Source: JBDREC01 sp043820105 [NCBI: Pseudomonadota bacterium]
Lineage (GTDB): Bacteria > Bdellovibrionota_F > JAHFAK01
DNA: 36,879 bases
NCBI GenBank assembly: GCA_043820105.1
Contig: JBDREC010000078.1
Span: 1-36,879, forward strand
Direction of reading: 5' to 3'
A program made the translations under genes and the position numbers. Positions 15,571 to 35,704 of the stretch are shown here, one piece after another; positions within the stretch are counted from its first letter, which is position 1; each line of letters opens with the position of its first letter. The notes below the pieces were generated by a model. That model was not told the origin of the DNA. It searched no databases and saw only the letters and a list, made by a program, of their open reading frames with translations.

Positions 15571-15668
15571 TTTTGCCACAGAGACACAGAGGTCACAGAG
15601 GAAGAAAATATTATTTCGAAGAAATAAAAAACCCAATTCTCTGTGCTCTCTGTGCCTCTGTGGCAAAA
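15571..15668. repeat. Dispersed hairpin repeat, copy A
   Basis: The left arm (TTTTGCCACAGAGACACAG...) and right arm (...CTGTGCCTCTGTGGCAAAA) are about 30 bp each and nearly perfect inverse complements. They enclose a loop with TATTATTTCGAAGAAATA. The repeat lies just after the wbpD-like stop. It is not a terminator by form, since no T-run follows the stem. Confidence 0.9.
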
Positions 15669-16882: not shown

Positions 16883-16974
16883 GCCACAGAGACACAGAGG
16901 TCACAGAGGAAGAAAATATTATTTCGAAGAAATAAAAAAAAACCAATTCTCTGTGCTCTCTGTGCCTCTGTGGC
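16883..16974. repeat. Dispersed hairpin repeat, copy B
   Basis: Nearly identical to copy A: the same GCCACAGAGACACAGAGGTC left arm, TTCGAAGAA loop and CTCTGTGGC right arm. It lies 12 bp after the wbpE-like stop codon and 65 bp before copy C. Confidence 0.9.
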
Positions 16975-18184: not shown

Positions 18185-18289
18185 ACCACAGGGACACAGA
18201 GACACAGAGAAATTAATATACATAAAAAAGAATTTTATTTTATAAAATTCTTTTTTATTTTTTTCTCTGTGTCTCTGTGCCTCTGTGGT
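18185..18289. repeat. Dispersed hairpin repeat, copy D (diverged centre)
   Basis: The outer arms (ACCACAGGGACACAGAGACA... and ...GTCTCTGTGCCTCTGTGGT) match the same family. The centre instead contains a second AT-rich inverted repeat around AAGAATTTTATTTTATAAAA. The right arm lies just before AAGGAG of the dehydrogenase gene, and an upstream in-frame ATG at 18269 lies inside the repeat. Confidence 0.88.
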
Positions 18290-18307
18290 AAAAATAAGGA
18301 GTTTCGA

Positions 18308-19282
18308 ATGAACAAAATAGCCGTAATTGGACTTGGAAAGGCTGGAATACCTTTAGCTTGTGTAATTGCTGAACAAAATATTCCAGTAATTGGCTTAGAT
18401 GTTTCGACAAAAAGAGTTGAAGATATTAATAATAAGATCAATCCGATCCCAGAAGAACCAGGAGTTTCAGAAATATTTGACAAACATATTGGAGTTAACT
18501 TTGAAGCAACTACTTCTTATGAAAAAATCTTAAAAGAATGTAATGTTTTTATAGTTATTGTTCCATTGTTTATTGATGATAATAAGCAACCGGTTTTTGA
18601 TAATATTGATACTGTCATGAATGAACTTTCTAAAGGTTTAAAAGATGATGATTTAGTTGTTTTAGAAACAACAGTTCCAGTTGGTACAACTCGAAATCGT
18701 TTAAAACCTATTTTAGATAAAAGTGGTTCTGATTATATGTTAGCTTATTCACCAGAAAGAATCATGACAGGCTGGTCAATTTCACGATATAGAGAATTTC
18801 CAAAAGTTGTAGCAGGACTTGATGAAAAAGCTACAAACAAGGTTTTTGATGTTTATTCAAAATTTTGCACAAAAGCTGACAAGGTTGACACAACTGAAAC
18901 AGCTGAGATGATAAAAGTTTCAGAAGGCGTTTATAGAGATGTTAACATTGCCTTGGCCAATGAGCTTTTTAAATTATGCGAAAAATATGGAATTGACTTT
19001 AAACAAATGAGAGAAAAAGCAAATCATCAATTCGTAAATATTCATCAGCCGGGCATTGGCGTTGGCGGGCACTGTATTCCAGTTTATCCATGGTTTTTGA
19101 TAAATGATAATGATGTCCCACTCACAAAAACAGCTCGGCTCATGAATGATGATATGATTCATTATTGGAAAAATAAAGTTTTAAAAAAAATTAGATGGGA
19201 AAAAGAAAGTTGGTGTAATTGGAATTACATACAGAAAAGGTGTAAAAGAGCTAGCTTATACAAGATCTCTTCCTTTCATTAA
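18308..19282 (+). CDS. UDP-sugar 6-dehydrogenase (WbpA/WecC type), frameshifted near the C-terminus
   Basis: This NAD-dependent nucleotide-sugar dehydrogenase would oxidise UDP-GlcNAc at C6, the first step of the neighbouring wbp-like pathway. 'GLGKAGIPLACVIAEQ' is the dinucleotide-binding loop. 'VVLETTVPVGTTRN' and 'LAYSPERIMTGW' follow. 'GVGGHCIP' holds the catalytic Cys at residue 256. ATG 18308, 6 bp after AAGGAG, is the start; an in-frame ATG at 18269 lies in a hairpin repeat. The true frame is lost after 'KNKVLKK' at an A8 run (19183-19190), and about 30 unrelated residues follow to the stop at 19282. With seven A's the frame would continue to 19448. This could be a sequence error, a real mutation, or a slippage site. 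Confidence 0.85.
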   Translation: MNKIAVIGLGKAGIPLACVIAEQNIPVIGLDVSTKRVEDINNKINPIPEEPGVSEIFDKHIGVNFEATTSYEKILKECNVFIVIVPLFIDDNKQPVFDNIDTVMNELSKGLKDDDLVVLETTVPVGTTRNRLKPILDKSGSDYMLAYSPERIMTGWSISRYREFPKVVAGLDEKATNKVFDVYSKFCTKADKVDTTETAEMIKVSEGVYRDVNIALANELFKLCEKYGIDFKQMREKANHQFVNIHQPGIGVGGHCIPVYPWFLINDNDVPLTKTARLMNDDMIHYWKNKVLKKIRWEKESWCNWNYIQKRCKRASLYKISSFH

Positions 19283-19448
19283 AGAGCTTGAAAAGGCAGG
19301 CCTTGATGTTTATGTGGCGGATCCAATGTATAGTGAACAGGAGATACAAGAACTCGGTTTTAAATATCACGCTAATCATGAGAATGTGGACTTAAATATT
19401 GTTATTAATATGACTATGAATATAACTAACAATACTATGTACATTTAA
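19206..19448 (+). pseudogene. Out-of-frame C-terminal domain of the UDP-sugar dehydrogenase
   Basis: In the frame +1 to the dehydrogenase gene, the sequence encodes 'KVGVIGITYRKGVKELAYTR', then 'FIKELEKAGLDVYVADPMYS'. This is the standard start of the UDP-glucose/GDP-mannose dehydrogenase C-terminal domain. It stops at 19446-19448 after about 80 residues. It lacks the last 30-40 residues, including the usual D-x-hydrophobic-T-x-H region, so it looks short even if the frame is restored. It is expressed only if the A8 run is read as seven. Confidence 0.8.
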
Positions 19449-19485
19449 GAAATTAATTATTAAACTTTTTTAGGATATGAAAACG

Positions 19486-21257: not shown

Positions 21258-21378
21258 GTTGTTTTTTTCATACACTAAATATATGGATATTTTACGAAAT
21301 AAATCTTGATTTCTTTTTTTCATTAAGCTTTATTGCCTGAAACCTAAAGGTTATAATTTTATTAATGTGGTGTTTAAT

Positions 21379-22356
21379 ATGGAATATTCAAAAGAATTGT
21401 TACTAAATCTATATAAGTCCATGCTAAAAATGAGGATTTGTGAAGAAAGCCTGGTTAATCCAATTATAGAGAGAGAAATTCAATGTCCTTGTCATTTGTA
21501 TAGTGGTGAAGAAGCAATTGCCGCTAGCTTTGGCGAGCTTCTGGAAAAAGAGGATTACGTTCTTGGAAACCATAGATCCCATGGACATTATCTGGCAAAG
21601 GGTGGAAACTTAAAGGAAATGATTGCGGAAATCTTTTGCAAAGATAGTGGTTGTTCAAGGGGAAAAGGTGGATCAATGCATTTGATTGATACCAGGGTTG
21701 GAATGTTAGGTTCAGCTCCAATTGTAGCTGGAACAATTTCTTTAGCCTTGGGCGTTGCTTTAGCTTCTAAAATAAGAAAAGACAATCGAGTTTCAGTTAG
21801 CTTTTTTGGTGATGGAGCAACAGGAGAAGGGGTTTTATATGAATCACTTAACTTTGCAGCTCTAAATAAACTACCAATCATTTTTGCATGTGAAAATAAT
21901 TTTTATTCTACTCATTTACACATTAAGGAAATTAGGGTTGAAAATGACATAAAGGACGTTGGGTCATCGCTTGGTATACAAAGCTATTTAGTAGATGGAA
22001 ATGATGTTTTAGAAACCTATAAAGTTATCAAGGAATCCGTTGATCTCATTAAAAATGGTAATGGACCTGTTTTTATTGAATTTCACACTTATAGGTTAAG
22101 AGGACATGTAGGCCCAGATGATAACCTTCAAGGAGAACATACTGATATTAGGCCAAAAGAAGAAATAGAAGCTTGGGTAAAGAAAGATCCTGTAATAAGG
22201 ATTGAAAAATATTTGTTAGAAAATAATTTGCTGGATGATAATGAAAAATTTGAAATAAAAAAACAAATTGAAATAGAAATAAATGAAGCAATTGATTTTG
22301 CGAAAAACAGTCCGTATCCAGACGTAAAGGAGTTATATTCAAATGTCTTCAAATGA
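21379..22356 (+). CDS. Thiamine-diphosphate dehydrogenase E1-alpha-like subunit
   Basis: A 325-residue homologue of the alpha subunit of pyruvate, acetoin or branched-chain 2-oxoacid dehydrogenase E1. 'HRSHGHYLAKGG' and 'SRGKGGSMHLID' are the conserved active-site segments. GDG at residues 144-146 through NN at 173-174 is the thiamine-diphosphate/Mg motif. Such subunits work as alpha2-beta2 with the beta subunit, encoded next with a 14-bp overlap. No E2 (lipoyl acyltransferase) or E3 gene is near, and the setting is sugar biosynthesis, so a two-carbon transfer to a sugar is possible. ATG 21379 was chosen over the in-frame GTG 21367; neither has a strong Shine-Dalgarno site. Confidence 0.85.
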   Translation: MEYSKELLLNLYKSMLKMRICEESLVNPIIEREIQCPCHLYSGEEAIAASFGELLEKEDYVLGNHRSHGHYLAKGGNLKEMIAEIFCKDSGCSRGKGGSMHLIDTRVGMLGSAPIVAGTISLALGVALASKIRKDNRVSVSFFGDGATGEGVLYESLNFAALNKLPIIFACENNFYSTHLHIKEIRVENDIKDVGSSLGIQSYLVDGNDVLETYKVIKESVDLIKNGNGPVFIEFHTYRLRGHVGPDDNLQGEHTDIRPKEEIEAWVKKDPVIRIEKYLLENNLLDDNEKFEIKKQIEIEINEAIDFAKNSPYPDVKELYSNVFK

Positions 22357-23338
22357 AAGAAAATTAAAATTTAGTCTTGCCATAAATGAAGCTCTTCATC
22401 AAATGATGGAAACTGATGATTCAGTGTTTGTATTGGGGCAAGGGGTTAAAAGTCCATGGTACGTTGGTAATACTGTTCAGGGATTGATTAAGAAATTTGG
22501 AGAGGAAAGGGTAATAGATACACCCATTTCTGAAAATGCCATGACAGGTGCCGCAGTGGGTGCCTCAATTGCCGGTATGCGAGCAGTAGTTGTTCATCCT
22601 AGAATGGATTTTATGTTATATGCATTTGATCCTATAATCAATCAAGCAGCAAACTGGTATTATATGAACGGTGGACAAGCCTCTGTTCCAGTAGTTGTAT
22701 GGTCAATTATCAACCGGGGGGGGGAGCAAGCAGCTCAGCATTCGCAAGCATTACAAAGTATTTTTGCGCATGTCCCGGGTCTTAAGGTTGTTACTCCATC
22801 TACTCCATATGATGCAAAGGGACTTATGATATCAGCTATCAAAGATGATAATCCTGTAGTTTTTATTGATGACAGATGGCTTTATAATATTGAAGATGTT
22901 GTTCCCACTGAAATTTATTCAATACCTATTGGAAAAGGCGAAATAAAAAAACATGGTAATGATGTAACAATAATTTCGAATTCATATTTAACACAAGAGT
23001 GCTTAAAATCTTTGAAAATTTTAAATGAAAAAAACATAGATGCTGAACTTATTGATTTACGTTCAATTAAGCCTTTAGATAAGGATTTAATTTTTGAATC
23101 TGTTAAGAAAACAGGAAAAGCAGTTATTGTGGATGGAACATGGAAAACATGTGGAATTTCTGCAGAAATATCAGCTCTTATTTCGGAAAATATTTTTGAA
23201 TACCTTAAGGCTCCGGTTTTTAGAATGGCTTTACCAGACACCCCAGCTCCTGCTAATAGGGTTTTAGAGAAAGAATACTATATTACCTCTGATAAAATAG
23301 CTTCTCAAGTGGAAGAATTTTGCCTTTCTTGTAAATAG
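22343..23338 (+). CDS. Thiamine-diphosphate dehydrogenase E1-beta-like subunit
   Basis: A 331-residue partner of the preceding E1-alpha. 'DTPISENAMTGAAVGASIAG' holds the Glu that activates the thiamine ring. 'GGEQAAQHSQALQSIFAHVP' and 'GLKVVTPSTPYDAKGLM' follow, as in the transketolase pyrimidine-binding domain. The C-terminal transketolase domain has 'ISNSYLTQECLKSLKIL' and 'IDLRSIKPLDKD'. AAAGGAG lies within the end of the alpha gene, 7 bp before ATG 22343. Gly124-Gly125 are encoded in a G9 run (22716-22724); slippage there would truncate the protein at about one third of its length. Substrate unknown; pyruvate is the usual donor in this family. Confidence 0.86.
   Translation: MSSNERKLKFSLAINEALHQMMETDDSVFVLGQGVKSPWYVGNTVQGLIKKFGEERVIDTPISENAMTGAAVGASIAGMRAVVVHPRMDFMLYAFDPIINQAANWYYMNGGQASVPVVVWSIINRGGEQAAQHSQALQSIFAHVPGLKVVTPSTPYDAKGLMISAIKDDNPVVFIDDRWLYNIEDVVPTEIYSIPIGKGEIKKHGNDVTIISNSYLTQECLKSLKILNEKNIDAELIDLRSIKPLDKDLIFESVKKTGKAVIVDGTWKTCGISAEISALISENIFEYLKAPVFRMALPDTPAPANRVLEKEYYITSDKIASQVEEFCLSCK
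22716..22724. repeat. G9 homopolymer in the E1-beta gene
   Basis: Nine consecutive G residues inside the coding sequence, read as CGG GGG GGG GAG in the given frame. It is the longest G run in the window and very unlikely by composition alone at this base content. Confidence 0.92.
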
Positions 23339-23386: not shown

Positions 23387-25462
23387 ATGTCTAAAAGATT
23401 TATCAAATTTCTTTTTTTATTGCTAGTCCTTAATTTTTTTTATTTTCCTGAGATTTATCCTTATTCATTAATAACAGATCTAAAAAAGCAGCTAACTTTT
23501 GATATTGGTTCTGATTCGCATAAGTTGATGCCCTTATTAACTTCAGAAGGTTATAGCGGTGCAATCTTTTCCCCAACAGGTGAAGTTTATCAAGATGGAC
23601 AACTTGGATTGGTTTTTAATACAGCTGTTGATACATTTGTAAATAGTAATGTCTCAAAACAATATAATTTTACTTTTGGGATTGGCTTTTTGCCAAGGCT
23701 TGAGCTGGGATTTCGTCTTGCTGATTCACAGACTCCAGCCGGATATGAACAGGATTTAGATTTACCAGAAAATCATGAAAGATATATTAGAGACCTATCA
23801 GCCAACTGCAAAATGAAGATAATAAAAGAGGGGTATTATCTTCCTGCTTTGGCTTTTGGAGTTCAGGATTTTGGAGGAGCATCTGAATTATTTAATTCAT
23901 ACTATTTAGCTATGTCTAAGACTTATTCTAATACGTTTAGATTTACATCCGGATATGGTTTTGGACCAGATCGTTTAAAAGGATTTTTTTCATCAATAGA
24001 AACATCTTTTTTAAAGTCTATTTATATTCAGGCAGAATATGATACAGAAAAGTTTAACGCAGGTCTTACTGTTTTCCCTTTCTTGAAATTTATTAAAGAA
24101 CATAGTTTTTTGGCTTATATTAATGGAAAATATATTCTTTCAGATATTTGGAATAACAACAATCATTATTGGGGAGTAGGCTTGGAAATTCCTCTTAATG
24201 AAAGACCAATTAGACATAAAAAAGAGATGGGATTACATGAAAAGACTTTGAAAAAAGATAAAAAAGAATTTTCAATTAATAGTCTTTTGAGCAAATTAAA
24301 AAATATTGGTTTTGAAAATTTATATTCAAGGATTGATGGAAATAGTATTTTAATTGAATATGAAAATCGCATTTATCCACGCTCCGAGCTTGATGCAATT
24401 GCCAGGATGTTAAGTGTTTTGTCTGAATATAAATATGAGAATAATTATGAAATTAACCTTATTATTAAGAAGCAAAAAATCGCTTTACTGAAACTTGCCT
24501 TTAAGATCAGAGACCTTTTGGCTTTTTCAAGTTATGAAATTTCTTCAGAAGATTTTGTGAATTTAGTTCATTTTTCATTTGTTGAACATGCTTATAAAGA
24601 TAAAAGCTCAGGGCTAATTAATTCTTCATTTTCAAAAAGTGATTTTTTCTTGTTACCAAAAAGGAAATATACAGTTGGCACAGATCTTGGTATTGCTGAC
24701 ATTAAGTTAGCCTTAATGCCGGAAATCAAAACACCTCTTTTTAAAGGCGGACTTTTAAGAACTTCATATTTAATACCCCTTGTAAATACCGAAGAATCAA
24801 TGCTTGGGCTTGATTATGATTATGGTTTTGAAAACTTAATGTATCATCAGGCTTTTTTATTGCCCTTTAGAGTCTTTAATCTAACATCTTTTGGGCAATT
24901 TGAGCAGTCTGCCTATTCAAATGATTTAGCTATATTCAATGAAACATCATGGTACTCTAGGGAGGGCGATTTAAAACTTGGAGGGATGTTTGGTTCAAGC
25001 TTTAATACAAGTTATTTTCTTTGGCTCAATAGGAAAATCACCAATGTTTTTGCAAGATACAGGGTTCAAAAATTGGATTTGGACCTTGGGCTTGAGGCAG
25101 GATATTATTATTATCGTGACTGGGGTTATAAAATATATTTTGATCGTTTTTATGGCAATACAAATGTTGGTTTATTCTACACTGGTAGTACTAGGGGAAA
25201 AGAGGCTGGTATTATGCTTTCATTCCCTCTTTGTTTTAAAAAGACAATACTGAAACCATGGTATATAAGGCCAAGGTTTCCTGATCAAATTAACTTGTCT
25301 CTAAGAAGTCAGATTTTTAATCCTGACATAATAAATAGTGTTGCTTCAAATGTGGCAAGATTGCCCGAAATGAGATATCGTACAGATTATTTATATTTTG
25401 ATAATGACAAGCTTACACCTTCTTATATAAAATCACATTTAAATGAAGCGATGGAGAGATAA
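23387..25462 (+). CDS. YjbH-family outer-membrane exopolysaccharide protein
   Basis: A 691-residue secreted protein, about the length of E. coli YjbH. A signal peptide (hydrophobic core about residues 5-23) is followed by 'SEGYSGAIFSPTGEVYQDGQ', 'FLPRLELGFRLAD', 'DLSANCKMKIIKEGYYLPAL' and 'AFGVQDFGGASELFNSYYLA'. This is the conserved start of the YjbH/GfcD family. Alternating aromatic/polar strands through the rest suit an outer-membrane beta-barrel. The central part (about 290-390) is more soluble in character. YjbH and GfcD are linked to polysaccharide secretion in YjbEFGH and GfcABCDE systems. The C-terminus 'YFDNDKLTPSYIKSHLNEA' recurs in a decayed copy at 26836-26919. A decayed thiD begins 2 bp after the stop. 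Confidence 0.8.
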   Translation: MSKRFIKFLFLLLVLNFFYFPEIYPYSLITDLKKQLTFDIGSDSHKLMPLLTSEGYSGAIFSPTGEVYQDGQLGLVFNTAVDTFVNSNVSKQYNFTFGIGFLPRLELGFRLADSQTPAGYEQDLDLPENHERYIRDLSANCKMKIIKEGYYLPALAFGVQDFGGASELFNSYYLAMSKTYSNTFRFTSGYGFGPDRLKGFFSSIETSFLKSIYIQAEYDTEKFNAGLTVFPFLKFIKEHSFLAYINGKYILSDIWNNNNHYWGVGLEIPLNERPIRHKKEMGLHEKTLKKDKKEFSINSLLSKLKNIGFENLYSRIDGNSILIEYENRIYPRSELDAIARMLSVLSEYKYENNYEINLIIKKQKIALLKLAFKIRDLLAFSSYEISSEDFVNLVHFSFVEHAYKDKSSGLINSSFSKSDFFLLPKRKYTVGTDLGIADIKLALMPEIKTPLFKGGLLRTSYLIPLVNTEESMLGLDYDYGFENLMYHQAFLLPFRVFNLTSFGQFEQSAYSNDLAIFNETSWYSREGDLKLGGMFGSSFNTSYFLWLNRKITNVFARYRVQKLDLDLGLEAGYYYYRDWGYKIYFDRFYGNTNVGLFYTGSTRGKEAGIMLSFPLCFKKTILKPWYIRPRFPDQINLSLRSQIFNPDIINSVASNVARLPEMRYRTDYLYFDNDKLTPSYIKSHLNEAMER

Positions 25463-25464
25463 AA

Positions 25465-25638
25465 TTGAAAACTGTTTTAACAATAGCAGGGTCGGATCCA
25501 TGTAGTGGAGCGGGAATTCAAGCTGATTTACAAACATTTAAAGATTATGTAGTATATAAGGTTTGAGTGTTTCCAAAGATGTCTTGAAAGCTTTAATTAA
25601 AAGTTTATTTGATAATAGTGAGGCTCAAATTAGTTTTT
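25465..25638 (+). pseudogene. Decayed thiD copy (5' remnant)
   Basis: From TTG 25465 the frame reads 'KTVLTIAGSDPCSGAGIQAD', then 'LQTFKDYVVY', and stops at 25564. This matches residues 2-31 of the intact ThiD at 27025. Two bases further, in another frame, GLSV continues the match (25560-25571). After a deletion of about 20 codons, 'SKDVLKALIKSLFDN' aligns with 'KANVLKDQLDSLIEDFD' of the intact copy. At least one frameshift and one internal deletion, plus loss of the last two thirds, make it nonfunctional. The following GT4 gene starts within the end of this remnant. Confidence 0.82.
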
Positions 25639-26781
25639 ATGAAAATAGCAATATTAAGCATTACGCAGAATGGTATAAGTGGTGGATATAAAAAATATTT
25701 AAATAATATTATTCCACTGATTAGCGGTAGCAAGGAAGTTGATGAAGTTCTATGTGTTTTTTCAAATTCTATTAAAAAATTATTTGTTGATCAAAAGATT
25801 GCAGGGGTTCAATATAAAAGTTGCAAAAATTTGACCTTATTGAATTATTTTTTTAACAAAGAATTATATAAATTTCTTGAAGAATTTGATCCTGATATTA
25901 TTTTTCTTACTGCTGAACGTCCTTTTAAATTCAAGAAGGTTCCCGTTGTTGTTTTATTTCAAGATATGAGGCCTTTTATTAAAAATGGCAGTGACTTTTC
26001 TTTTATAAACAAAATTAAATTACAACTCAAAAAAAGAATTAGTTTGATGTCTTTTCAGATGGCAGATAAAGTAATTACAGTTTCTGATAGCTGCAAATTT
26101 TATTTAAAAAAAGAATTAAAAATTAATTCAGACAAAATTAACTATATTTACTATGGTGTCAATCCTTGTGAACAATCTTTTAAGCCTACTATAGTTCCTG
26201 ATGATTGGAAAAACAAATTCATATTCACTGCAGGTAGTTTTGGATCCTATCGAGGTTTTGAAGATTTAATTAAAGCTTTTACACTTTTTGATTTTAATCA
26301 ACTTGGAATTAAGGGAATTGTAATTGCATCTAATTTAAATGATGTCGAAAAAAAATATAAAGCATATTTAGATAAACTAATAGCTAAACACAACCTTAAC
26401 TCAAAAGTTATTTGGACTGATGAAATTTCTGAACCAGAAATGACCTGGTGCTATTCTAATTCTCAGCTTTTCATAATGACCAGTAGAGTTGAGTCAATTG
26501 GAATGATTGCACTAGAAGCTTTAGCACATAAATGCAGAATAATTTCAGCCAGGAATTTTTGTTTGCCTGAGATTTTTGCTGAAGCAGCATTATACTACAC
26601 TCCCAAAGATTCTGAAATGCTTGCAAATGTTATTAAAGATGCTATTGCTATGACAAGGGTTGCAAAAGAAGAATTTGTTGAGAAAGTAGAAAAACAAGCA
26701 ATGATGTTTTCGTGGGATAAGTGTCTCATGGAAACGATTTCTAATTTTAATTCAATACTTCAAACAAAAACTTTTAAATAG
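25639..26781 (+). CDS. Glycosyltransferase family 4 protein
   Basis: A 380-residue GT-B enzyme. It begins 'MKIAILSITQNGISGGYKKY' with a glycine-rich acceptor-domain loop, and has 'DKVITVSDSCKFYLKKEL' near residue 145 and 'YYGVNP' near 170. The donor half has 'FTAGSFGSYRGFEDLIKAF', 'FIMTSRVESIGMIALEALAH' (E-x7-E) and 'ISARNFCLPEIF'. ATG 25639 is chosen because the in-frame upstream ATG at 25609 lies in thiD-derived sequence and adds ten residues with no homology. It sits between the decayed thiD and the decayed YjbH tail, so it was either part of the duplicated unit or inserted between the copies. The linkage is unknown. Confidence 0.85.
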   Translation: MKIAILSITQNGISGGYKKYLNNIIPLISGSKEVDEVLCVFSNSIKKLFVDQKIAGVQYKSCKNLTLLNYFFNKELYKFLEEFDPDIIFLTAERPFKFKKVPVVVLFQDMRPFIKNGSDFSFINKIKLQLKKRISLMSFQMADKVITVSDSCKFYLKKELKINSDKINYIYYGVNPCEQSFKPTIVPDDWKNKFIFTAGSFGSYRGFEDLIKAFTLFDFNQLGIKGIVIASNLNDVEKKYKAYLDKLIAKHNLNSKVIWTDEISEPEMTWCYSNSQLFIMTSRVESIGMIALEALAHKCRIISARNFCLPEIFAEAALYYTPKDSEMLANVIKDAIAMTRVAKEEFVEKVEKQAMMFSWDKCLMETISNFNSILQTKTFK

Positions 26782-26835
26782 CCGATGATTTTTATCGATT
26801 TTTAGTTTATAGTTTCTTTTTTAAAATTCGTTATT

Positions 26836-26919
26836 ATAATATTTGTTGATAATGATAGGTTGACACAATCCTATATTCGTGAGCACCTTGAAAAGACAAC
26901 TAACATATTAGGCTTGTAG
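26836..26919 (+). pseudogene. Remnant of a second YjbH-family gene (C-terminal tail)
   Basis: The frame ending with TAG at 26917-26919 encodes 'VDNDRLTQSYIREHLEKT'. It aligns with 'FDNDKLTPSYIKSHLNEA' at the C-terminus of the intact YjbH-like protein: DND(R/K)LT.SYI..HL is preserved. Only about 25 codons are recognisable. The upstream 55 bp after the GT4 stop show no further similarity that I can see. As with the intact pair, a thiD gene follows it. Confidence 0.72.
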
Positions 26920-27006
26920 CTTATAGCTTGTGGCTTGTAGGGACTGTTGGGCAATGTGAATTAATAATTTATTTTCCTACTAGCTACTAGCTACCAACTA
27001 CCAGCT
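26909..27006. repeat. TAGCTT/CTAGCTAC-type low-complexity inverted repeat
   Basis: The left part repeats TAGCTT and GGCTTGTAG (26909-26940). The right part repeats CTAGCTAC, CCAACTAC and CAGCTA (26979-27006). The two are roughly inverse complements around a 40-bp centre. The element fills the gap between the YjbH tail remnant and the intact thiD, whereas the first copy pair is separated by 2 bp. It therefore looks like an insertion between them. Confidence 0.6.
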
Positions 27007-27024
27007 ATTATGAAAGAAAAGCTA

Positions 27025-27819
27025 ATGCTAACAGTGCTAACAATCGCCGGCTCTGATCCTTGTGGTGGCGCAGGTGTTCAAGCCGACTTATGGACATTTC
27101 GTGATCTGGGGGTATATGGCTTAAGTGCGATTACCGCTCTTACGGCTCAAAACACATCAGAGCTTAGGTCTTTGCATATAGTAAAAGCGAATGTTTTGAA
27201 AGATCAATTGGATTCCCTGATTGAGGATTTCGATATTTCTGCAGTGAAAATCGGTATGGTTGGGGATTTAAAATTAGCTGAACTTATAGAAAAATATATT
27301 ATAGTTAATGAAATGAAAAACATTGTAGTTGATCCTGTTTTAACTTCTACAACTGGTAAAAATTTAAGCGATGATGATCTTAAAAGCTTTTATTTGGAAA
27401 AGCTTTTCCCTTTGGCAAAAGTTATAACACCAAATATTCCAGAGGCAGAAACCTTAACTGGGATTAAAATTGATAGTGAAGAAAATCTTGAGAAAGTTTT
27501 ATCAAAGCTTAAAGGCACAAATTGTGAATATGTTGTTCTTAAGGGAGGACATCTTGAAAAAATAACAAATAACAAATACCAAATGCCAAATACTACTTCT
27601 GATTTTATTTATGATGGAAAAAAAATAGAAACGCTTTCTCTTAAGACTATTGACACTTGTCAAGTGCGTGGTACGGGTTGCCGCTTTTCTTCTGCTATCG
27701 CCGCTAATATGGCAAAAGGATTGGAACCTCTTGTGGCTATATCAAAAGCTAAAGAATATGTTCATTTTGGAATCAAAAATTCTATTAAAATAGGGCAAGG
27801 AGCTAATTTAATTTTATGA
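27025..27819 (+). CDS. thiD: Hydroxymethylpyrimidine/phosphomethylpyrimidine kinase ThiD
   Basis: A 264-residue ribokinase-fold kinase. ThiD phosphorylates HMP and HMP-P, giving the pyrimidine half of thiamine. 'TVLTIAGSDPCGGAGVQAD' starts the fold. 'VKIGMVGD', 'VVDPVLTSTTGKNL', 'ITPNIPEAETLTG' and 'VLKGGHLE' follow. 'GTGCRFSSAIAANMAKG' holds the anion hole and catalytic Cys at about 219. ATG 27025 matches the start of the decayed copy at 25465; ATG 27010 lies next to repeat DNA and adds five residues. Residues about 180-190 are encoded by a small repeat (27561-27595) between two conserved blocks, apparently an in-frame insertion. The stop overlaps the next gene by 4 bp. ThiD supplies the cofactor precursor for E1-type enzymes such as those at 21379-23338. 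Confidence 0.9.
   Translation: MLTVLTIAGSDPCGGAGVQADLWTFRDLGVYGLSAITALTAQNTSELRSLHIVKANVLKDQLDSLIEDFDISAVKIGMVGDLKLAELIEKYIIVNEMKNIVVDPVLTSTTGKNLSDDDLKSFYLEKLFPLAKVITPNIPEAETLTGIKIDSEENLEKVLSKLKGTNCEYVVLKGGHLEKITNNKYQMPNTTSDFIYDGKKIETLSLKTIDTCQVRGTGCRFSSAIAANMAKGLEPLVAISKAKEYVHFGIKNSIKIGQGANLIL
27561..27595. repeat. AACAAAT-type short repeat inside thiD
   Basis: The sequence reads AATAACAAAT, AACAAATACC, AAATGCCAAA, TACT. This is a degenerate direct repeat of a type seen in intergenic regions of many environmental genomes. Here it lies in frame, coding ITNNKYQMPNT in a surface loop region between KGGH and the GTGC motif. Confidence 0.6.
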
Positions 27820-28943
27820 TAAAAACACCAGAAGATATTAAAAAAACAATTAACTTTTATGAAGAATCAGGGTTTGATGGCTTTTCAAAAAAAATGCTTA
27901 TGGAGTGTGATGAAAAATTTTTATTTTATTTTTTTTCTGTGTTATTTGAAGAGGCTAGTATTTGTGAATGTGAGCTTTCTTTAGAAAAATGGAGAGAGAA
28001 CCTGGCTTTCACAAATAGAAATAATGCAAGCTTTGTATTTTATTACAAATTAAAAAAAAATAAGCCTCAATTTATGCCACCAGATGAGATCTTAGGGGAT
28101 TTGAGATCAAAGTATCTTTCTGCCTGTTGTGCAAGCCTTGCTTCTATTCGGCAACTAAATGAATTGTTTTCAAAGTTTAATGAAGAAAAATTGTCTGTTA
28201 TTGTTTTTAAAGGGCCTGCTTTAGATCAATTTTTATATCCACAACAAGGCTTAAGAGTTTTTTCAGATATCGATCTTTTAGTAAATCCAAAGCAGTATAA
28301 TTTGTTTCATAAAGCAATTGGAAGCCTGTCGTATTTTAGCAAATATGATTCTAAAATAATGAAAAAAATTCAAGAATTGCATATAGAAGAAACTTTTTAT
28401 AATAAAAAAAATAATTATAAAGCAATTGATTTGCATTGGTCTTTAAATGCTTACAAGGGAATATTCCCAAAATTAAAAACTAAAGTATTCTTTGAAAAAT
28501 CTGTAGAGCATAATAAAATAAGAATATTTGATTTAATAGATACTTTCATTAGCTTGTCAATTCACCTTTTATTGACTCATGAAAATGAGATTGTTTTTAT
28601 CAGAATTTATGATCTTTATTTGGCTTTGCAAAAGATAATTGCTTCTGGTGATGTCTCTGAATTATTCGAAAGGGCTGCGAAAAATGAAACAACGGTTCTA
28701 ATTAAAAAAGCAATAAGTCTTGTTTTATTATGGACAGATCTTGAAATATCGGAAGATATACAGAGAAATTATAACCTTAATGAGTACTCTAAAGAAGAAA
28801 TCAAAATACTTAAGTATATTAGCAAACGCCACAAAAATCCATTTTATTGGCTTAAGGTTAGATTGCCAAAGGATAAAAATATTTTATCATCTTTAATTAT
28901 GTTAATTAGGTATGCAATATGCAGGAAGAAATATAAGCTTTAA
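27816..28943 (+). CDS. Nucleotidyltransferase-like protein (NTP_transf_5 type), copy 2
   Basis: A 375-residue paralogue of the protein at 1665-2864. 'VIVFKGPALDQFLYP' and 'LRVFSDIDLLVNP' (about residues 128-158) carry the D-x-D of the nucleotidyltransferase fold. 'EETFYNKKN', 'AIDLHWSLNAYKG', 'ISLSIHLLLTHENEI' and 'ISKRHKNPFYWLKVRLP' match the same blocks in copy 1. It overlaps thiD by 4 bp (ATGA), so it is translated with it. It is the last plus-strand gene of the cluster and converges with the lipoprotein gene that ends 17 bp away. No substrate is known; a role in polysaccharide assembly is inferred from location. Confidence 0.77.
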   Translation: MIKTPEDIKKTINFYEESGFDGFSKKMLMECDEKFLFYFFSVLFEEASICECELSLEKWRENLAFTNRNNASFVFYYKLKKNKPQFMPPDEILGDLRSKYLSACCASLASIRQLNELFSKFNEEKLSVIVFKGPALDQFLYPQQGLRVFSDIDLLVNPKQYNLFHKAIGSLSYFSKYDSKIMKKIQELHIEETFYNKKNNYKAIDLHWSLNAYKGIFPKLKTKVFFEKSVEHNKIRIFDLIDTFISLSIHLLLTHENEIVFIRIYDLYLALQKIIASGDVSELFERAAKNETTVLIKKAISLVLLWTDLEISEDIQRNYNLNEYSKEEIKILKYISKRHKNPFYWLKVRLPKDKNILSSLIMLIRYAICRKKYKL

Positions 28944-28960: not shown

Positions 28961-31900
28961 TTACCAGCTTCCTGGCCCACCCCATCTTCCGCCAAAAGCT
29001 CCCATGTCTGTTGCAGTGTCTACAAATCCATCTTCATCGAAATCATCGCCTGTTCCGTCTTCATCCCAATCATCATAAGAGCCATCAGCATCAACATCGC
29101 AAGTTCCTGCATCTATTCCAGGAGAATAAGCCCTTATCAAGAACTGATTAAAGGCAACTTCATCATCTGGATCACTTGGCTCTAAAATGTCTGGAATGCC
29201 GTTTGCATCAATATCAATAGTAATGTCCATGACAGTATCACTGTCCCCATCATAGGTTTTAATGAAGAGTTCTGGATCAGACCCAAGTATATTGTTATAT
29301 GCTGATGAATCCGAATAGTCAGTTTCCAGGCACCAGTCATCAGAGTTATTATCGAACATCAAATTATAATGAAATAAGGCAGTGTAAGTTGGACTTCCAG
29401 AATGTTCCATCGCAACACCACAATCCAGACTTTTCGCGATAATATTGTTTGCAATGTAAACAGGGGCATCCAGACTTTCATCCTTATAAATAGAACCAAA
29501 TCCCTGACCATTATTAAAGTAAAAAATATTATTGACGATATGTATCGGGTCTTCAGAAGATTCATTCGCCAGATATACAACGCCTTCAGCTGTACCATTG
29601 TTACCATTAGCATAAAAAATGTTGTTAAAAAATTCCATGCCATATGTGTGCTTAGCATAAAATGCTGCTCCATTATCTGTGGCATTGTTTTTAGTAAAAA
29701 TATTATTATGAATTTCATTTTCACCGTTTACATAATTCATATAAATAGCGCCACCACTTTCTGCTGAATTGCTAATATATCTGTTGTTGGTAATAGTATA
29801 GGCAGCATTATTTAAGGAACTATATATTGCTCCACCATAATTCTGTGCACTATTTGAAATGAAATCATTGTCGGAAATAATAATGGGATCTGTTGCTGCT
29901 GAAAAGAATATTGCTCCACCACTTAAGCTGCTTCCTGAATCAGCCTGGGCAGTGTTGTTATTAAATTCATTTCCTGAAATAGTAAATTCACTGTTCATAG
30001 AATAAAATGCACCACCTTTTGCTGCTGTGTTATTTGAGATGCTATTATTATCCAAAAGGCCAGCCTCAACATTGTTAAAGGCAATGGCACCACCAGAATT
30101 CGCGATATTGTTACTAATGGTTGTATTATTATCAATTGACACCGAATTGCCACTATACACATAAATAGCACCACCGTACGATCCAGCGGTGTTATTTGAA
30201 ATACTGGTGTTAGAACTAATTGAGATATTGTCAGAATTTTTTACGTAAATAGCACCAAAGGAAGCAAATGATTCATTATAATCAATAGCTATATTATTAT
30301 CAATTGAGACATTATCTGAAGCATTAAGATAAATTGCACTTCCTGAGGTTTCGGCAAAATTGTGGGAAATTATATTTTCTTCAATCATGCTTCCTGGTGA
30401 GCTATCCACGGTAATTGCTCCTCCATTGATCTCTGAATAATTATATTGCAGTTCATTTCCACTAATGAGGGCTTCAGAATTGTCAAGATATATAGCTGCT
30501 CCGTAACTCGCGGTCTGATTGCAGTTAATTTTGTTGGAAGCAATGATTAAATCCTGACTTAAATCTTTTGCGTAAATTCCACCGCCATTACCATGTCTGA
30601 TAGTAAAGCCTTTGATATTGGTTTCTGTTTCAGAGCCAGAATAAGTGGATAAAGAGTAACTGATAGCAACATCTTCCATATTTCCATCTATAATTGTATC
30701 TTCACGTCCTTTTAAGCTTAAAAGCTTAAGTTTTTTATCATTAATTATAAGGTTTTCTTCATAAATACCTTCAGCAACAACAATGCATGCTCCATCTTCC
30801 ACCGAATCAATAGCATCTTGTATTGTATCAAAATCACCTGTTCCATCTAAAGCAACATAATAATCATATGCAAACATTGCGTCAGTATCATCACAATCTC
30901 CAGCTTCCTCTGAATAAATTGAGGTAATCATATCTCCAGGGTTTGAACAAGCCTCTATAGAATTTTCAAAAAGTCCATAACCATCATTATCTCTATCAGG
31001 ATACCATGTTATCATGACATCTTCATCAACAGCTCCATCACAATCATTGTCAATAGAGTCGCAAATTTCCGCGGCACCGGGATTGATTGTTGCATCGCTA
31101 TCATTGCAATCTCCCTCTGTCGGCGAATAACCATCACTGTCATCATCAAAGCCACTAATTTCAGCCTCATATCCTGAACAATCTTGATCTATTCCGTCAA
31201 ACATCATGGCGTCGTCCAGGGCTCCGGGATTTATTGATGCGTCTGAATCGTTGCAATCAGTGTTATCTGCAACATAATCTGTTGGCTCAGAACAGGCTTT
31301 TGTTGTATTATCCGGATTTCCATATCCATCTTCATCATTATCCTTATAATAAGTTGTTTTTACATATTCATCAACTACATCATCACAATCATTATCTTTA
31401 GCATCACAAACTTCAGAGGCGCTTGGATATCTTTCAGCATCAGTGTCATCACAATCATCACTTAACTCAGCGTAACCGTCTGGCAAAGCACAAGCTTCAG
31501 TTGTTGTGTCACTTACTCCGTGATTATCTCCATCATCATCAATATAATAAGTTGTAAGTCCTATTATGAGTGGATCCTCATCATCTGATAAACCATCACA
31601 GTTATTATCTATTCCATCACAGATTTCTGAAGCACCTGGATAGGCACTAGCTTCTGTATCATTGCAATCAGTATTGTCTGCAACATATCCAGGAGTCGCA
31701 GTACAGGCAAATATTCCACTTGAGCTATCTCCATAACCATCAATATCACTATCCAAATAGAATGTTGTCATATCAATAGCATCAGAGTCAGTTATTCCAT
31801 CACAGTTATTATCAACTCCATCACAAACTTCATCCATGTCTGGATTTATTGCCCCGTCAGTATCATCACAATCTTCATCATTTGAAACAAAACTACTTGG

Positions 31901-32830
31901 CCTTTCACAGGCATAATCAATTGAAGCTGCATTCCCATAGCCATCACCATCAAGATCATGATACCAGGTTAAGACATCAATAGCATCAGCTTCATCGGTG
32001 CTTCCATCACAATCATTATCATCTCCATCACAGAATTCATCAGCTCCTGGATTAATATCAGCATCAAAATCATTACAATCAAGGTCTACTAATGACATTA
32101 ATGCAGAGGCATCAACATAACCTGACATAGCTCCACATGATTCGTAAGTTACTCCTGTTGTGTAGCCATCAGAATCATCGTCCTGATAGTAGACTGTTGA
32201 AGGTGCTTCCTCTGTATCAACAAGCCCATTGCAATTATTATCAATTCCATCTAAGCAGTCTTCTGGCGCCTGTGGATTTATTGAAGCATCTGAGTCATCA
32301 CAATCTTCATCATTGCTTTCATAATCATCTGGCTGAGCACAGGCTTGAATACTTGTTTCACTGCTTCCGTACCCATCTGTGTCCTCATCTAAGTACCAGG
32401 TGGAGGCATCTAGGGCATCAGCTTCATCAATTTCATCATCACAATCATTGTCAACTCCATCACAATATTCATTGGCACCTGGATAAATGCTTGCATCAGT
32501 GTCATCACAGTCGCCTGCCTCGACAGTTGAACCATCTCCGTCAGAGTCTGTTTCAGCGTCTCCATCGCCGTCTCCATCACCATCACCGTCCCCATCACCA
32601 TCGCCATCCCCATCACCATCACCATCACCGTCCCCATCGCCGTCTCCATCACCATCACCATCTCCATCACCATCGCCGTCTCCATCTCCATCTCCTTCAC
32701 CAGTCTGTCCATAAATTCCAGAATCATCTGTATCTTCATCTGTATTTGAACATGCGATAAAAGATGTTAATAAGAATAATGAAATTAATAAAAGTATAGA
32801 AATGTTTTTTATTTTGCCACTAGAGCCCAT
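28961..32830 (-). CDS. Large lipoprotein: (GD)n linker, MopE-type repeats, beta-helix
   Basis: A 1289-residue surface protein. The start is ATG 32830, with GGGAGA 5 bp upstream; TTG 32848 is poorer. A lipoprotein-like signal ends 'LLTSFIACSN', with Cys27 as the likely lipid site. A linker of about 24 Gly-Asp pairs follows. Eight full and one partial MopE-like repeats come next (pattern C(D/N)D.DA.I.PGA.E.CDG.DN(D/N)CDG, about residues 95-645), each with paired Cys and many Asp, suited to calcium or other metal binding. From about 655, 'YYVALDGTGDFDTIQDAIDS' opens a right-handed parallel beta-helix with many 'NN.(I/A)..GGAIY' coils to about 1190. The C-terminus is Asp-rich, ending in GAFGGRWGG. 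An adhesin or surface-layer role is inferred. No enzymatic residues were recognised. Confidence 0.85.
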   Translation of the reverse strand: MGSSGKIKNISILLLISLFLLTSFIACSNTDEDTDDSGIYGQTGEGDGDGDGDGDGDGDGDGDGDGDGDGDGDGDGDGDGDGDGDGDGDGDAETDSDGDGSTVEAGDCDDTDASIYPGANEYCDGVDNDCDDEIDEADALDASTWYLDEDTDGYGSSETSIQACAQPDDYESNDEDCDDSDASINPQAPEDCLDGIDNNCNGLVDTEEAPSTVYYQDDDSDGYTTGVTYESCGAMSGYVDASALMSLVDLDCNDFDADINPGADEFCDGDDNDCDGSTDEADAIDVLTWYHDLDGDGYGNAASIDYACERPSSFVSNDEDCDDTDGAINPDMDEVCDGVDNNCDGITDSDAIDMTTFYLDSDIDGYGDSSSGIFACTATPGYVADNTDCNDTEASAYPGASEICDGIDNNCDGLSDDEDPLIIGLTTYYIDDDGDNHGVSDTTTEACALPDGYAELSDDCDDTDAERYPSASEVCDAKDNDCDDVVDEYVKTTYYKDNDEDGYGNPDNTTKACSEPTDYVADNTDCNDSDASINPGALDDAMMFDGIDQDCSGYEAEISGFDDDSDGYSPTEGDCNDSDATINPGAAEICDSIDNDCDGAVDEDVMITWYPDRDNDGYGLFENSIEACSNPGDMITSIYSEEAGDCDDTDAMFAYDYYVALDGTGDFDTIQDAIDSVEDGACIVVAEGIYEENLIINDKKLKLLSLKGREDTIIDGNMEDVAISYSLSTYSGSETETNIKGFTIRHGNGGGIYAKDLSQDLIIASNKINCNQTASYGAAIYLDNSEALISGNELQYNYSEINGGAITVDSSPGSMIEENIISHNFAETSGSAIYLNASDNVSIDNNIAIDYNESFASFGAIYVKNSDNISISSNTSISNNTAGSYGGAIYVYSGNSVSIDNNTTISNNIANSGGAIAFNNVEAGLLDNNSISNNTAAKGGAFYSMNSEFTISGNEFNNNTAQADSGSSLSGGAIFFSAATDPIIISDNDFISNSAQNYGGAIYSSLNNAAYTITNNRYISNSAESGGAIYMNYVNGENEIHNNIFTKNNATDNGAAFYAKHTYGMEFFNNIFYANGNNGTAEGVVYLANESSEDPIHIVNNIFYFNNGQGFGSIYKDESLDAPVYIANNIIAKSLDCGVAMEHSGSPTYTALFHYNLMFDNNSDDWCLETDYSDSSAYNNILGSDPELFIKTYDGDSDTVMDITIDIDANGIPDILEPSDPDDEVAFNQFLIRAYSPGIDAGTCDVDADGSYDDWDEDGTGDDFDEDGFVDTATDMGAFGGRWGGPGSW
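32558..32698. repeat. Hexanucleotide array encoding the (GD)n linker, gene 1
   Basis: About 24 degenerate 6-bp units of (C/T)CCATC or (A/G)CCGTC type encode Gly-Asp pairs on the minus strand. Third-position variation (GAT/GAC, GGT/GGA/GGC/GGG) shows that the array is not freshly expanded. Any gain or loss of units keeps the frame. Apparent Ser-Pro and His-rich frames on the plus strand are its shadows. Confidence 0.95.
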
Positions 32831-32967
32831 ATCTTTCTCCCAATTCAAAAATTATGAAAATTGAACTGCTTCTTTTGCCCTAAAAATGGTAAAATGACTA
32901 TCTAACTATTATTAAACATTATAATAATAAGAAAGTTCCGAATAGCTTATTTAGCAAGAAATATATC

Positions 32968-35558: not shown

Positions 35559-35598
35559 ATTTATTAGATTCTTGAGACACTGGGGAACAGTGAGAGGA

Positions 35599-35704
35599 AG
35601 GGGTAAGTGGTAAGGGGTAAGTGGTAAGTGGTAAGTGGTAAGGGGTAAGTGGTAAGTGGTAAGGGGTAAGGGGTAAGTGGTAAGTGGTAAGTAGTATGTG
35701 GTAA
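35599..35704. repeat. Heptanucleotide tandem array (GGGGTAA/GTGGTAA)
   Basis: About fifteen 7-bp units alternate between AGGGGTA and AGTGGTA in irregular order, ending with degenerate AGTAGTA and TGTGGTA units. It is intergenic, with strong strand asymmetry (G-rich on the plus strand). Confidence 0.95.

Follow-up and report, generated by a model that had tools for sequence, protein, structure and literature searches.

Remnants of a repeated yjbH-thiD gene pair in a bacterial polysaccharide locus: a possible scar of rearrangement between related cassettes

The described systems closest to the genes analyzed here are the YjbH/GfcD outer-membrane family (DUF940, PF06082) and the HMP/HMP-P kinase ThiD (TIGR00097). 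GfcD, of which YjbH is the Escherichia coli paralogue, was found to reside in the outer membrane and to consist mostly of beta-strand, its function being unknown (PMC8592465). The window, by which we mean the whole stretch of DNA analyzed (36,879 nucleotides), encodes one intact member of each family, YjbH above the curated Pfam cut-off and ThiD likewise above that of TIGR00097. The YjbH protein is only about 23-29% identical to other YjbH proteins over long alignments, and an NCBIfam search with it returned no model at E 0.01. Unlike other ThiDs, that of the window lies in a polysaccharide locus and carries a repeat-born insert within residues 184-195, in eight columns of which a residue is present in only 0.06 of 54 other ThiDs; a heptamer array at 27560-27592, inside the thiD coding sequence, accounts for about eight extra residues, in frame. 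The same protein (27010-27819) carries RGTGCRFSSAIAA. Of the 16 ThiD rows listed for another phylum, 13 share its RGTGCRF motif, while HGTGC stands in 23 of the 39 ThiD rows of the genome-contig search, a distribution of RGTGCRF that is possibly a hint to the origin of the window. Placement of the window in the RGTGCRF-rich phylum was dropped, since 0 of 46 of those genomes gave a YjbH match.

Both genes belong to a long polysaccharide locus, largely on the + strand, that encodes Wzz-like proteins, glycosyltransferases, DegT aminotransferases and a bacterial sugar transferase (several of these names were given by eye). In its right-hand part the gene order is E1 alpha/E1 beta, yjbH, thiD remnant, GT4, yjbH tail remnant, thiD and NTP_transf_5, with the following features from yjbH onwards:

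23387..25462, + strand: intact yjbH, copy 1, 691 aa (PF06082, Pfam E 1.4e-27, 97.3 bits, cut-off 24)
25453..25467, + strand: GGAG with the TTG at which thiD copy 1 formerly started, overlapping the yjbH end (sequence reading; putative coupling)
25471..25557, + strand: remnant of thiD copy 1, N-terminal 29 codons, without a stop (alignment, TIGR00097, PF08543, ThiD profile, codon analysis)
25558..25638, + strand: stretch without supported homology, from the thiD remnant to GT4 (segment profile E 13; no Pfam match)
25639..26781, + strand: GT4 glycosyltransferase gene (PF00534, E 1.1e-19 on ORF 25609-26781; ATG chosen by eye)
26842..26895, + strand: remnant of yjbH copy 2, conserved C-terminal motif (C-terminal profile E 1.9e-6; alignment score 62)
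26912..27007, no strand: inverted pair of heptamer arrays, GCTTGTA x4.1 and CTACCAG x4.4, between the yjbH-2 remnant and thiD-2
27010..27819, + strand: intact thiD, copy 2, 269 aa (TIGR00097 261 bits, cut-off 204.95; PF08543 E 4.8e-80)
27816..28943, + strand: NTP_transf_5 gene, overlapping the end of thiD-2 (PF14907)

The order yjbH-thiD is present twice, each gene being intact in only one of the two pairs, and GT4 occupies the place expected for the remainder of thiD-1 and the bulk of yjbH-2. This arrangement of intact yjbH, decayed thiD, GT4, decayed yjbH tail and intact thiD is that of the original prediction, and both remnants are recognized by profiles built without the window copies.

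The first remnant (25465-25560) reads LKTVLTIAGSDPCSGAGIQADLQTFKDYVVYK and begins two bases after the yjbH stop, as had been noted, with what reads as a TTG start. GGAG at 25453-25456 sits within the last yjbH codons, and together with the TTG this looks like a former translational coupling of thiD-1 to yjbH. The proposed kinship with the intact copy is borne out by alignment, the remnant scoring above every shuffle both as protein (121; best of 1000 shuffles, 54) and as DNA (50; best of 500 shuffles, 33). TIGR00097 matches it over model positions 1-32 of 254 (E 6.6e-10) with 38.7 bits, far below the whole-protein cut-off of 204.95, as expected for a fragment, and PF08543 matches with E 8.3e-5 (22.5 bits, below the cut-off of 27). 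A ThiD profile of 54 proteins, window copies excluded, gave E 1.3e-15 for the remnant and E 9.5 for the next match in the window; 39 of the 54 had been found via patterns from the window's own pair, so this profile leans towards the remnant, a lean of which the TIGR00097 and PF08543 searches are free. The remnant covers the N-terminal segment of ThiD and lacks the remaining fold, nothing beyond it being supported, and it stops short of the GT4 start (ATG at 25639). Its earlier delimitation as 25465-25640 was too long, as homology is secure only over 25471-25557; a further thiD piece, proposed for about 25570-25640, did not hold up (score 38, reached by 11 of 1000 shuffles; no Pfam match; segment profile E 13).

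Upstream of the intact thiD, FVDNDRLTQSYIREHLEK at about 26842-26895 (about 17 codons) is a YjbH C-terminus. Its predicted alignment with the intact copy stands above shuffles for the protein (score 62; best of 1000 shuffles, 52), while the DNA score of 32 exceeds all 500 shuffles (30) in a tail-only comparison and is marginal against the whole gene, where 8 of 500 shuffles matched it. In a C-terminal profile of 23 foreign YjbH proteins, taken from the flanks of genomes of one class (one protein being cut by a contig end), the remnant is the top match in the window (E 1.9e-6), followed by the window's own YjbH tail (E 7.2e-5) and by a next match at E 0.051. The full-length profile from the same 23 proteins gave E 0.002 for the tail remnant, and a Pfam search of it gave no match. 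Most of these foreign proteins share a C-terminal motif, DRL, then YI/YL, then HL, which the remnant fits, while it is without the final ~10 residues of the family's usual end. The heptamer-repeat element starts just after the point where the remnant departs from the family pattern.

The two arrays of this element (26912-26940 and 26977-27007) are inverted and lie beside thiD; folded as a single strand, they are only slightly superior to shuffled sequences (z -1.48; 18 of 200 shuffles did as well). Other repeats occur in the window: a 15-copy array of AAGTGGT at 35598-35704, and short arrays of the TCTCTGTG/CACAGAGA type in the intergenic gaps at 15638-15662, 16948-16972, 18187-18210 and 18264-18287, one array of this type extending into the start of the next ORF. 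Abundant heptameric repeats in bacteria have been mentioned before (PMC4692102). A WecC-like UDP-sugar dehydrogenase ORF (18269-19480, named by eye) changes frame near its end, with a continuation readable in another frame, which would be either a frameshift or a sequencing error. NTP_transf_5 paralogues (1665-2864 and 27816-28943, 40% identical) lie near both sides of the locus, and 28961-32848 on the - strand encodes a large protein with GDGDGD repeats and with Asp/Cys repeats that are presumably MopE-like.

The differences between the copies fall mostly at silent positions. Over the 29 codons of thiD, 26 of 87 nucleotides differ (6, 4 and 16 at codon positions 1, 2 and 3), and 13 of the 23 shared residues use a different codon. 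In the yjbH tails, 22 of 51 nucleotides are different (7, 4 and 11 at the three positions) and 10 of 17 residues are shared, and the reading frames are kept in both remnants. Such a pattern indicates that, long after the two pairs had parted, yjbH and thiD were still functional in each. We simulated neutral decay under a simple mutation model in which one copy drifts while the other keeps its protein, and asked for as many base differences, as many shared residues and no stop: 0 of 500 runs matched the data at each of six depths, for thiD and the yjbH tail alike, which argues that the copies diverged as working genes and that the losses came late. The identity of both remnants, their order and the coding type of their divergence are direct observations. 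For the thiD segment, third-position GC amounts to 0.10 in the remnant against 0.34 in the intact copy, the 22 tabulated genes ranging from 0.16 to 0.26. The whole intact thiD has an ordinary value for the window (0.24), with 0.33-0.38 in its first third and 0.16-0.22 in the rest, a step that could reflect a mosaic gene or merely conserved codons and to which we give little weight.

How closely the copies are related has to be read from remnants of 29 and 17 codons only. The thiD remnant is identical to the intact ThiD at 23 of 29 residues and to two foreign ThiDs at 22 of 29, none of 54 foreign ThiDs being closer to it than the window's own. Furthermore, both copies share GSDPC, and the Cys after Asp-Pro is missing in all 16 ThiD rows listed for another phylum, which come from 15 genomes and include one gene twice; the two copies may therefore be related more closely than identity over so few residues conveys. 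In a calibration on an unselected set of 15 ThiDs, 23/29 was reached by none of 32 pairs less than 50% identical outside this segment; the share of pairs reaching it was 15% of 39 at 50-60%, 32% of 22 at 60-70% and 91% of 11 at 70-80%, while in the full set of 54, mostly selected by motif, 15% of 137 pairs at 40-45% already reach it. For yjbH, the remnant matches both the window's own tail and the best of 23 foreign tails at 10/17, a value usual for YjbH pairs with 40-50% identity (mean 0.58, range 0.24-0.82). Taken together, the distance between the copies perhaps corresponds to whole proteins 40-75% identical. In a ThiD tree, the window stands on a long branch, in no supported group; the best long ThiD matches elsewhere are 43-46% identical, depending on tool and method, and two partial matches, covering residues up to 93, reach 52 and 55%.

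We also looked for the pair in other genomes, the original prediction having proposed a search of related ones. In genomes that are all distant from the window, 0 of 83 distinct YjbH stretches contained ThiD and 0 of 55 ThiD loci contained YjbH, and outside the window a selected link is thus without support. Flanks were very unequal in length, some being cut by contig ends with one or both sides barely visible. Of 244 genomes in one class, 25 had YjbH, in a few cases as a fragment, and further sets had it in 59/398, 9/198 and 6/64 genomes; sets with no YjbH match were 0/24, 0/46 (two queries), 0/77 (the same 77 genomes, reached from two centres) and 0/199. The 83 stretches (87 loci counted, four of which repeat places already included) comprise 23 from the one class, 8 from one phylum and 52 from another phylum. 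For the class, flanks were taken from 23 of the 25 genomes, omitting two fragment genomes and, in one genome, using one of two YjbH places; 49 of the 59 genomes gave the 52 stretches, ten genomes and some second copies being omitted, and all six of the smallest set gave the 8. Eight short YjbH loci from the 198-genome set showed no ThiD match. The 55 ThiD loci are 39 from the genome-contig search and 16 from whole genomes, where ThiD was present in 42/46 and 348/395, wide flanks having been examined for 16 of the 348. As controls, the ThiD profile found ThiD in 55/55 ThiD loci and the YjbH profile found YjbH in 85/87 YjbH loci, the other two being recognized via PF06082 only.

The 39 contig loci came from a two-row ThiD alignment searched against genome contigs, with a best segment 44% identical, and tblastn found no YjbH in them. 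A YjbH search of genome contigs yielded no relative, and viral contigs scanned for ThiD, YjbH and E1 beta gave no match. Plasmids contained 416 ThiD records, all below 60% identity, and 28 YjbH records, 0 of them covering 80%; they gave no near DNA match to 15000-36879. In the literature searched, no publication connected thiD with YjbH or with the export of polysaccharides; the one paper returned for yjbH together with thiD concerns Staphylococcus aureus. The YjbH of that species is an unrelated protein.

Next to the intact yjbH, E1 alpha/beta genes of pyruvate dehydrogenase type (21367-23338) follow a DegT aminotransferase in the polysaccharide locus and end 48 bp upstream of yjbH. E1 alpha falls below the PDH equivalog cut-offs and E1 beta above a subfamily cut-off. 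The pair is possibly a thiamine-diphosphate-dependent sugar-modifying enzyme; it depends on that cofactor by family, which makes a cofactor link with yjbH-thiD thinkable.

Polysaccharide loci often exchange cassettes. The reading that we put first, giving it about an even chance, is that this stretch is a scar of rearrangement between a related cassette and the resident one. After a long separate evolution as working genes, two yjbH-thiD pairs would have come into tandem (...yjbH1-thiD1 followed by yjbH2-thiD2-NTP_transf_5), most likely when a polysaccharide cassette of a related lineage, with identical gene order, was joined to the resident cassette by acquisition or recombination. The redundant genes would then have been reduced to one of each, GT4 now occupying the place of the thiD1 3' part and the yjbH2 5' part, for which one replacement or two deletions would be enough. 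The surviving YjbH should serve as an outer-membrane polysaccharide protein and the surviving ThiD as an HMP/HMP-P kinase. We infer the number and order of these events, the function of the surviving genes and the choice of import over an old duplication; the latter is favored because such loci exchange cassettes and hold remnant genes, and because other distant paralogue pairs are present here. These pairs (NTP_transf_5 40%, Wzz-like 26% and DegT 28% identical in a self search) are what a composite locus would lead one to expect. Among the genomes and contigs searched, all distant from the window, neither a donor nor a relative carrying a second intact pair turned up, and an ancient duplication in place would yield identical remnants.

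That duplication is the chief competitor, and we consider it possible though rather doubtful. The original prediction took a tandem yjbH-thiD duplication with complementary loss as the simplest reading; the pair does occur twice in the same order with complementary survival, but silent-position divergence requires any such duplication to be ancient, both pairs having worked in this lineage until they were only moderately alike. The GSDPC common to both thiD copies and the failure of 54 foreign ThiDs to match the remnant better than the window's own favor such a history, which nevertheless asks that redundant tandem pairs be kept through extensive silent change with one gene of each lost late, and which sits uneasily with a remnant nearly as near two foreign ThiDs (22/29) as the intact copy (23/29). 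A recent tandem duplication whose spare copies quickly decayed would explain the order of the remnants, yet the silent-site divergence, the kept frames and the failure of every simulated decay make it very unlikely, indeed the least probable of all the readings. An assembly chimera that mixes two metagenome strains or species is improbable; it would have to accommodate genes that abut cleanly, an uninterrupted GT4 and an even third-position GC along the locus. Equally improbable, in our judgment, is that yjbH-thiD is a selected operon, supplying for instance thiamine diphosphate to the upstream E1-type pair and kept through rearrangements. The closeness of the E1 genes to yjbH, the apparent former coupling of thiD-1 and the repeated yjbH-thiD order speak for it; the lack of neighborhood in all 83 YjbH stretches and 55 ThiD loci speaks against it, as do the best-matching foreign ThiD, among 395 genomes, whose neighbors read by eye as thiamine genes (thiE/thiL-like and thiM-like), and the finding of no TPP riboswitch or other Rfam family at the gathering threshold in the window. 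Slighter still is the chance that yjbH and thiD form a selected pair in an unplaced lineage, tied to an E1-type thiamine-diphosphate-dependent polysaccharide enzyme and swapped as a unit; cofactor supply and surface-polymer export would then be inherited and exchanged together.

Altogether, the stretch looks like gene-cluster reshuffling, neither a fresh duplication nor a proven link between thiamine and cell-surface sugars: a scar of an ordinary evolutionary kind with an unusual partner gene. Its interest would rise if relatives showed yjbH and thiD travelling together. When a gene pair is replaced in a polysaccharide locus, its ends can stay legible, an aid in dating and orienting the exchange, and analysis by codon position tells copies that are old or imported from a fresh duplication, even where only 17-29 codons are left. 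The nearest parallel is offered by Acinetobacter baumannii and its capsule (K) loci, since left-over genes likewise lie inside polysaccharide loci there: qnr and itrB2 are described as remnants of a sugar-synthesis operon (PMC3628348). In contrast with those loci, what is left here is two short gene ends of one repeated pair, one partner of which is a thiamine gene.
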